DNA of 64,000 bases, taken from contig NZ_JACRTF010000001.1 in assembly GCF_014385165.1 (NCBI RefSeq), positions 1,922,001 through 1,986,000 of the forward strand, written 5' to 3'. The translations under genes and the position numbers were made by a program. Source of the stretch: Jilunia laotingensis. Its GTDB lineage: Bacteria; Bacteroidota; Bacteroidia; Bacteroidales; Bacteroidaceae. Below, in pieces: positions 11,459 through 62,003 of the stretch. A model generated the notes under the pieces. The model worked only from the letters and a program-made list of their open reading frames with translations, made no database searches and had not been told where the DNA came from. How positions within the stretch are numbered: the first letter of the stretch is position 1; each line of letters begins with the position of its first letter.

Positions 11459-11518
11459 AACATGGGGGTGTCTCACTGCGAAACATGGGGATGTTTCACT
11501 GCGAAACATGGGGATGTC
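11459..11518. repeat. Palindrome array, three copies at 23-bp period
   Basis: Copies start at 11459 (AACATGGGGGTGTC), 11482 (AACATGGGGATGTT) and 11505 (AACATGGGGATGTC), exactly 23 bp apart. The consensus is AACATnnGGATGTT with 9-bp spacers; the spacers between copies 1-2 and 2-3 are both close to TCACTGCGA. It lies between the GH144 start (11387) and the GH3 stop (11669), beyond the 3' hairpin of GH3. The same motif at the same period recurs at 61867-61949. Function unknown. Confidence 0.85.
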
Positions 11519-20037: not shown

Positions 20038-20119
20038 TGCGGCTGATAGGACTCGAACCTACACGTCGCGAGACACCAGATCCTAAGTCTGGCGCGGCTA
20101 CCAATTACGCCACAGCCGC
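20038..20119 (-). tRNA. tRNA-Leu (anticodon UAG)
   Basis: On the minus strand the acceptor GCGGCTG pairs with CAGCCGC, with discriminator A. The anticodon stem CCAGA/TCTGG encloses CTTAGGA, giving anticodon TAG (leucine, CUA). A long variable arm and a T arm with GGTTCGAGTCC are present, as expected for the class II tRNA-Leu. CCA is not encoded. It is followed by a strong hairpin. Confidence 0.96.
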
Positions 20120-61866: not shown

Positions 61867-61949
61867 AACATCCGGATGTTGTGATATAAAACATCCGGAT
61901 GTTTTTGTATAGAACATGGGGATGTTTTGTATGATAACATACGGATGTT
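61867..61949. repeat. Palindrome array, four copies at 23-bp period
   Basis: AACATCCGGATGTT at 61867 and 61890 (perfect 14-bp palindromes), AACATGGGGATGTT at 61913 and AACATACGGATGTT at 61936. All start exactly 23 bp apart; spacers are 9 bp, A/T/G-rich and differ. The third core is identical to the middle copy of the array at 11459-11518. Confidence 0.9.
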
Positions 61950-61960
61950 TATGGATATGA

Positions 61961-62003
61961 TAACGGAAGGTGAATTCTGTAATCATTAATTCACCTTCCG
62001 TTA
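61961..62003 (-). terminator. Hairpin at the 3' end of the LTD-protein gene
   Basis: TAACGGAAGGTGAATT (61961-61976) pairs perfectly with AATTCACCTTCCGTTA (61988-62003), 16 bp with an 11-base loop, 38 bp past the stop at 62042. No good T-tract on either side, so it may stabilise rather than terminate. Confidence 0.65.

Follow-up and report, generated by a model that had tools for sequence, protein, structure and literature searches.

The 64,000-nucleotide stretch of DNA analysed here (the window) carries, between two converging genes, an array of four palindromes of a word that we call W1 (Table 1). The left neighbour is named from its annotated relatives and is presumably KdtA/WaaA-like; the neighbouring gene has its nearest relatives in Bacteroides, where protein identity reaches 93%, with a DNA identity of about 78% over the region. 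The four palindromes lie exactly where the original prediction had placed them, at a 23-bp period, and all four match AACATNNGGATGTT. As it had also described, they are separated by unrelated 9-bp spacers, which are three different sequences (GTGATATAA, TTTGTATAG and TTGTATGAT), and are situated between the converging genes beyond a hairpin with a 16-bp stem. Its account of the units themselves stood for the invariant arms (4/4 exact), whereas the supposedly variable NN centre is not free, with few centre types dominating. The hairpin adjoins the array but lies outside the array proper, and it is probably the terminator of both convergent genes. At the gathering score, the sole Rfam match in the whole window is a tRNA at 20038-20119, and the array matches no known RNA family. 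With up to two mismatches, the W1 word has 23 matches in the window, compared with a mean of 8.34 (maximum 15) in 100 dinucleotide-preserving shuffles. A second array, about 50 kb from the first and overlooked by the original prediction, has one exact unit out of three; with its identical spacers it is atypical and perhaps a young duplication.

Table 1. Coordinates of the palindrome arrays and adjoining features in the window.
Feature	Position	Strand	Remark
Four-unit palindrome array, word W1 (AACATSSSSATGTT), period 23	61867..61949		Same geometry in other genomes
W1 unit 1, AACATCCGGATGTT	61867..61880		
W1 unit 2, AACATCCGGATGTT	61890..61903		
W1 unit 3, AACATGGGGATGTT	61913..61926		
W1 unit 4, AACATACGGATGTT	61936..61949		
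Second W1 array, three units (AACATGGGGGTGTC, AACATGGGGATGTT, AACATGGGGATGTC), period 23, both spacers identical (TCACTGCGA)	11459..11518		
Hairpin with 16-bp stem, adjoining the array	61961..62003		Read from sequence
Left neighbour, glycosyltransferase N-terminal domain protein, 406 aa	60484..61704	+	Name from annotated relatives
Right neighbour, 627 aa, lamin-tail domain PF00932	62042..63925	-	

A search of other genomes for the word at 23-bp spacing, which the original prediction had suggested as a check, showed that the array is not confined to the window. With gaps of N{0,30} allowed between units, W1 forms 258 pairs in 30 of the 158 genomes of the genus, and 23 is the preferred spacing; among the matches listed, the period is 23 except in G011 (21) and G026 (22, another word). 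Two other, unrelated words behave similarly under the same gap setting: W2 (AGTACGTACT) forms 35 pairs in three of 27 genomes, 32 of them at period 23 and three at 22, and W3 (GASACCCGGGTSTC) forms 44 pairs in 15 of 158 genomes, all at period 23. Reversed-pattern controls yielded no pairs for W2 or W3, and 13 pairs in two genomes for W1 (12 in G027, one in G077); these reversed-W1 matches (TTGTA..TACAA) are probably yet another word rather than chance. In B. neonati, the intergene 3' of the kdtA-like gene that matches the window's holds three AGTACGTACT sites, 23 bp apart. This 3' intergene carries an array in four species (the window, L003, L064 and L029), with three different words among them, and in further species other hairpin elements stand in its place.

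Arrays were also found de novo, without a given word. In 800 kb, half from B. fragilis G005 and half from B. xylanisolvens G004, a scan whose four-unit requirement biases it towards four returned 19 four-fold palindrome repeats with periods of 21-23 and seven matches at other periods within 16-33, whereas ten shuffled 400-kb sequences (4 Mb) contained four such repeats of period 21-23, all of them at 22-23. Most of the de novo arrays have a word of their own; a few matches are AT-rich or resemble coding repeats, and not all are convincing. At a looser threshold, seven of 29 matches with periods of 21-23 fell in coding sequence, in contrast to 16 of 24 at other periods. The scan found none in the 50 kb sampled from E. 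coli. Judged from these sequence matches, the window array is one copy of a widespread class of DNA element in Bacteroides.

W1 arrays mostly have four units. Across 55 of them, which are distinct in sequence and in some cases mutually orthologous, 38 have four units, nine have three, five have five, two have two and one has six, in counts unbiased towards four beyond a two-unit requirement. Isolated copies of AACATNNNNATGTT outside arrays numbered two in 1.78 Mb of loci, many of which had been chosen for holding the word. The extended site reads A-N-AACATSSSSATGTT-N-T. At the 164 exact-armed sites of these arrays, the centre is GGGG in 57, CCCC in 45, CCGG in 41 and another sequence in 21; GGCC occurs at none of the 164, with about 17 expected if the halves were independent. 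No consistent pattern was found for a half-type pairing code between W1 units. In three orthologous array pairs of B. fragilis and its relative G036, with orthology judged from the flanking genes, 117 of 120 arm positions and 48 of 48 centre positions are identical, compared with 49 of 81 for the spacers and 110 of 180 for the adjoining flanks. Comparison of these three pairs thus shows sites and centres conserved while the spacers drift.

Several arrays have neighbours or duplicates of their own. In the group comprising G012, G054, G127, G153 and G156, five or six units make up each array seen, and several of these arrays (in L106, L107, L112, L125, L126 and L167) are flanked, in phase at about 23 bp, by another motif (GGACTGAG / CAGTCCCGGACTG), as though a further protein bound in register. 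In G006, L128 and L131 have 717 bp in common at 95%, in inverted orientation and with the array included, while L127 and L128 have 118 bp in common (the array plus 34 bp) at 88%, with the arrays at the edges of the duplications.

Two ideas about the function of the array had been put forward in the original prediction, namely a protein-bound, phased array and a transcribed string of tiny hairpins. The second would make the array a hairpin string or one long RNA hairpin, acting as a terminator, 3' UTR or sRNA. Many arrays do lie near gene ends, and an entire array can be folded into a long hairpin (z about -0.7 to -9.7 for 19 arrays on both strands), as it will because the palindrome is repeated. 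Some period-22 arrays additionally have complementary spacers (s2-s3 0.50 vs 0.28) and the look of a long inverted repeat; these may be a mixed class. For W1, in contrast, spacer complementarity equals the control (0.44 within vs 0.41 between arrays) and GGCC centres, permissible if hairpins paired, are absent. Among the centre types, one half pair that a long hairpin would join correlates positively (L1-R4, r 0.27), in favour of such a hairpin, whereas the inner halves expected to pair (R2-L3) are anticorrelated (r -0.48), against it. On spacer complementarity and centre-type correlation we rejected the hairpin string for W1, and consider an RNA hairpin of either kind very unlikely as an explanation of the arrays. 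The phased protein-bound array is the better supported of the two ideas, since the sites are kept while the spacers drift and since W1 goes along with a DNA-binding protein, as described below. Its specification of one face of the DNA is not exact: 23 bp corresponds to about 2.2 turns, and some arrays have a period of 21 or 22 bp instead.

The position of the arrays relative to genes does not single out one kind of site. The 37 W1 arrays examined are mostly intergenic (two overlap short ORFs, taken as spurious) and lie between 14 tandem, 14 convergent and nine divergent gene pairs, whereas comparison intergenes of at least 200 bp comprise 33 tandem, 15 convergent and 23 divergent; with orientations so mixed, a location restricted to promoters was rejected. 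The excess of convergent positions seen for W1 does not extend to arrays at large, because those in the unselected 800 kb lie in 15 tandem, four convergent and three divergent intergenes against a background of 113, 37 and 44.

A phage or plasmid mobile element was likewise rejected as the source, with one pair in viral contigs and weak plasmid matches only. The pair, in viral contig L081 (14951-14987, near the stored end), consists of two AACATACCTATGTT units at period 23, separated and preceded by TAAAATCTG. The one strong match among phage entries, MT838576.1 (L167), is filed as 'Bacteriophage sp.' and contains a five-unit W1 array; it is taken for Bacteroides chromosome because it is unannotated and its long ORFs resemble, by eye, glycoside hydrolases. 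Three W3 pairs of G041 (1193549, 3513478 and 5315142) have the same spacer, also seen in G048 and G004, and belong to a stretch that is duplicated or mobile. Three related arrays of G004 (2305810, 2366699 and 2284463) have common spacers (gcgatagt, ttttcgt) and inverted flanks; they form a MITE-like family, of which one member precedes an HU-HIG gene.

Dispersed intergenic palindromes with lineage-specific words also recall REP/BIME elements, and the arrays might accordingly be palindromes spread by a RAYT (Y1 transposase). A Y1_Tnp search over the 158 genomes found the domain in 35, yet in none of the 12 genomes with at least eight W1 pairs, nor in B. fragilis with its six pairs. Unlike REP/BIME, moreover, the arrays have spacers that mostly differ between copies and a fixed period of 21-23 bp. 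Following this search the RAYT/REP explanation was rejected, and we regard it as exceedingly improbable.

A candidate partner emerged from the genes beside the arrays. Among 71 of the 74 genes flanking W1 arrays (three small doubtful ORFs were omitted), the top Pfam family is HU-HIG (PF18291), reportedly named by Burroughs and others in 2017, with four members. These four genes are orthologues, in G003, G006, G015 and G036, with a W1 array 62-86 bp upstream. The 166-aa B. fragilis orthologue (G005), which has a B. hominis relative (P0026), has one 84 bp upstream, with a degenerate fifth unit in between, and the orthologues of G025, G057, G131, G145, G148 and G149 have one at 76-86 bp, which brings to eleven the genomes where W1 precedes the orthologous HU-HIG gene by 62-86 bp. 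Four partner proteins tested score 77.4, 70.9, 80.3 and 71.0 bits with PF18291 (cut-off 26.2) and match PF00216 too. The PF18291 model also matches ordinary HU in nine of 14 control genomes, E. coli included; B. fragilis has 16 matches, B. xylanisolvens 34, G036 13 and B. neonati 14, some of them ordinary HU, and such numbers make one paralogue per word plausible for many words. An AlphaFold2 model of the partner (pLDDT 76.8) predicts HU-like helices and beta strands that make up a body resembling HU, to which an additional N-terminal beta hairpin and, in our reading of the model, a short arm are joined. The best PDB fold matches of this model are HU/IHF, although weak (E 0.055, probability 0.98), and a sequence search of the PDB with the partner protein gave no HU match. 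A profile of seven W1/W3-type proteins detected no HU-HIG gene in L001-L081 or in the window itself; we assume that the W1-type protein of the window species is encoded elsewhere in its genome.

Before HU-HIG emerged, the geometry alone had led us to entertain an Lrp octamer, which was then dropped. An octamer would suit four dimer sites about two turns apart, and the arrays could be sites of an octameric Lrp/AsnC-type protein or, as chromosome-organising sites, of the SlmA/Noc type. The five W1 arrays of B. fragilis (two further 3-mismatch matches were taken as chance and omitted) leave a gap of 2.8 Mb in the chromosome. With five arrays, however, this gap is unremarkable by a hand estimate, in which a chromosome-arm bias was not significant, and dnaA (3.64 Mb) lies at the gap edge; moreover, the Pfam survey of flanking genes brought up HU-HIG and no gene of these types. 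We give these readings hardly any credence.

The link between W1 and the HU-HIG protein was examined across genomes. A W1-type orthologue (best match of at least 146 bits) is present in 23 of the 158 genomes, and 21 of these 23 have exact W1 pairs, compared with exact W1-pattern pairs in nine of the 135 genomes without the orthologue. Fisher's test for this contrast gives 4e-17, a nominal value because the genomes are related and the cut was chosen post hoc: it was set after inspection of the list, and 138 bits would add G022 and G089, both without W1. Judged from a single locus per genome, five of these nine have the word CATGTACATG, one has AACATTATAATGTT, one has an odd pair and two have real W1. 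The two real cases, G130 and G133 (best E about 1e-8, no clear orthologue; both 3.1 Mb), may be incomplete genomes. The AACATTATAATGTT locus, four units in G139 caught accidentally by the W1 pattern, lies just upstream of an ORF matching the HU-HIG profile (E 1e-8). Conversely, G018 and G059 have the orthologue and no exact W1 pair, though both carry W1 in degenerate array form upstream of the gene. For W3, an HU-HIG domain starts 43-95 bp away from the word in at least eight of the 15 W3 genomes.

The association extends beyond the orthologues first recognised. Of 40 further W1-type relatives, picked down the match list among unexamined places and not exhaustively, 33 have an array of period 21-23 (score at least 26) within 500 bp upstream and one has an array at another period, compared with 21 and 13, respectively, of 211 control genes cleared of HU-HIG genes. 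Since the 40 include many orthologues, the Fisher value of 2e-20 is nominal; one of the 40 (L323) repeats a gene of the 59-gene test described next, and another (L288) is cut by a contig end. Among 59 HU-HIG matches of four genomes, 19 have an upstream array (score at least 27, within 300 bp), compared with 12 of 214 control genes that had not been cleared (Fisher 3e-7). These 59 were drawn from 77 PF18291 matches, omitting 17 short HU-like proteins and one HU-HIG gene of G005 (244737, no array near). The remaining 40 fall below score 27, and the array-less HU-HIG genes mostly encode 150-176 aa. Where the original prediction knew of no feature type that explains the array, the class can now be said to go with HU-HIG genes.

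The word itself appears to change, loosely, with the protein. Relatives at least 54% identical to the W1 type have W1 or a degenerate W1 upstream, the exceptions being G059a (no array) and G001 (contig end). Near 45-52% identity the words are mostly GACACCC, TACACCC or TACATCC, with unrelated words too at 47-51% (L309, L311 and L312), and at lower identity TAGACCC, GAGATGC, AAGATGC and others appear; the W3 protein of B. xylanisolvens shares only 36% identity with the W1 type. Very probably, on these comparisons, different HU-HIG relatives use different address words. The same words recur at a distance from the genes. Of 20 dispersed arrays (all seven intergenic arrays of G005, and 12 of 15 plus one more from G004, with degenerate units dropped in a few), nine have a word in common with an HU-HIG promoter of the same genome at a permutation p of at most 0.05, where about one in 20 is expected by chance; these are three of seven in B. 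fragilis and six of 13 in B. xylanisolvens. Of the G004 arrays, two were left out as weak and a third because it is an HU-HIG promoter itself. In one case, the array at G005:358474 and the HU-HIG gene at 911574 have in common both the word and the unusual period of 21 (TCTTAGCTGCTAAGA).

These data could also arise if the arrays were operators of another regulator family that also controls HU-HIG genes, making HU-HIG the target and not the reader, and the 11 of 20 dispersed arrays that match no HU-HIG promoter word found would fit such a scheme. Against it stands the specificity just described, in which different paralogues have different words while close orthologues keep W1 or its degenerate form; the alternative therefore needs a second, similarly sized family evolving in step, and we consider it unlikely. 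With high confidence, we instead interpret the array as a compound site at which one HU-HIG protein binds DNA, HU-HIG being a branch of the HU/IHF superfamily that is expanded in Bacteroides.

Based on this interpretation, we propose a hypothetical scheme in which (i) each palindrome would bind one HU-HIG dimer; (ii) four adjacent dimers would bend or wrap about 85-90 bp of DNA; (iii) the promoter copy of the word would give self-regulation of the HU-HIG gene; and (iv) the dispersed copies would be additional sites of action, either in regulation or in the local structure of the chromosome. In three of the four W3 promoters shown, TTTG and a TAATTTTG element, which we take to be Bacteroides promoter consensus elements, precede the array, and this placement suggests that the W3 array may lie just downstream of the transcription start, in the style of a roadblock operator. 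Between convergent genes, where 14 of the 37 W1 arrays lie, control of a promoter would not be expected, which counts against the scheme; for the window array it is accordingly unlikely, and a role in chromosome structuring or at 3' ends is possible. Extending the scheme, we tentatively put forward, as an idea with somewhat less than an even chance of being correct, an addressing code in which many HU-HIG paralogues would have a palindrome word of their own to read, set out as about four sites spaced 21-23 bp apart. Each paralogue would regulate itself and nucleate a defined, wrapped nucleoprotein structure at its own scattered intergenic loci, and the organisation of the nucleoid would thereby be divided among these proteins, with specificity evolving fast.

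Such sites would differ from those of the systems they most resemble. HU is a nearly non-specific, textbook DNA packer, and IHF reads a non-palindromic site. The partners here match the profiles of this DNABII family and have a predicted HU-like fold with weak PDB matches; unlike for HU and IHF, the associated words are paralogue-specific palindromes of 14-15 bp, repeated about four times. Judged by symmetry, the palindromic units do not conform to an IHF site, the consensus of which is non-palindromic. Tandem operator arrays of autoregulated repressors are known from lambda OR and hipBA, and as in these systems several palindromic operators lie upstream of the candidate regulator's own gene. 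In contrast to them, number and period are similar across many paralogues and words, and many copies lie far away, also between convergent genes. Noc, SlmA, MatP and ParB are dedicated DNA-binding proteins with chromosome sites; the present elements are likewise short palindromes scattered over the chromosome with a candidate dedicated protein, but they form arrays and not single sites, comprise many paralogue-specific words per genome, and involve a protein modelled with an HU fold. In CRISPR loci, acquired spacers alternate with identical repeats of about 25-40 bp, whereas the units here measure 14-15 bp, the spacers 6-9 bp, and about four units make an array.

In the open-licence literature searched, we found no report of these arrays or of an HU-HIG binding site. 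Operator arrays and HU proteins as such are already known; what appears to be new, from comparative sequence evidence, is a set of paralogue-specific, mostly four-site, fixed-period words for HU relatives. If true, this would represent, in dominant gut bacteria, a way of recognising sequence that is new for the HU fold, and would add a new layer to how chromosomes are organised or regulated. Many genes annotated only as 'HU family DNA-binding protein' would then become regulators with predictable targets, and the many word-protein pairs would offer a natural data set on how protein specificity changes.
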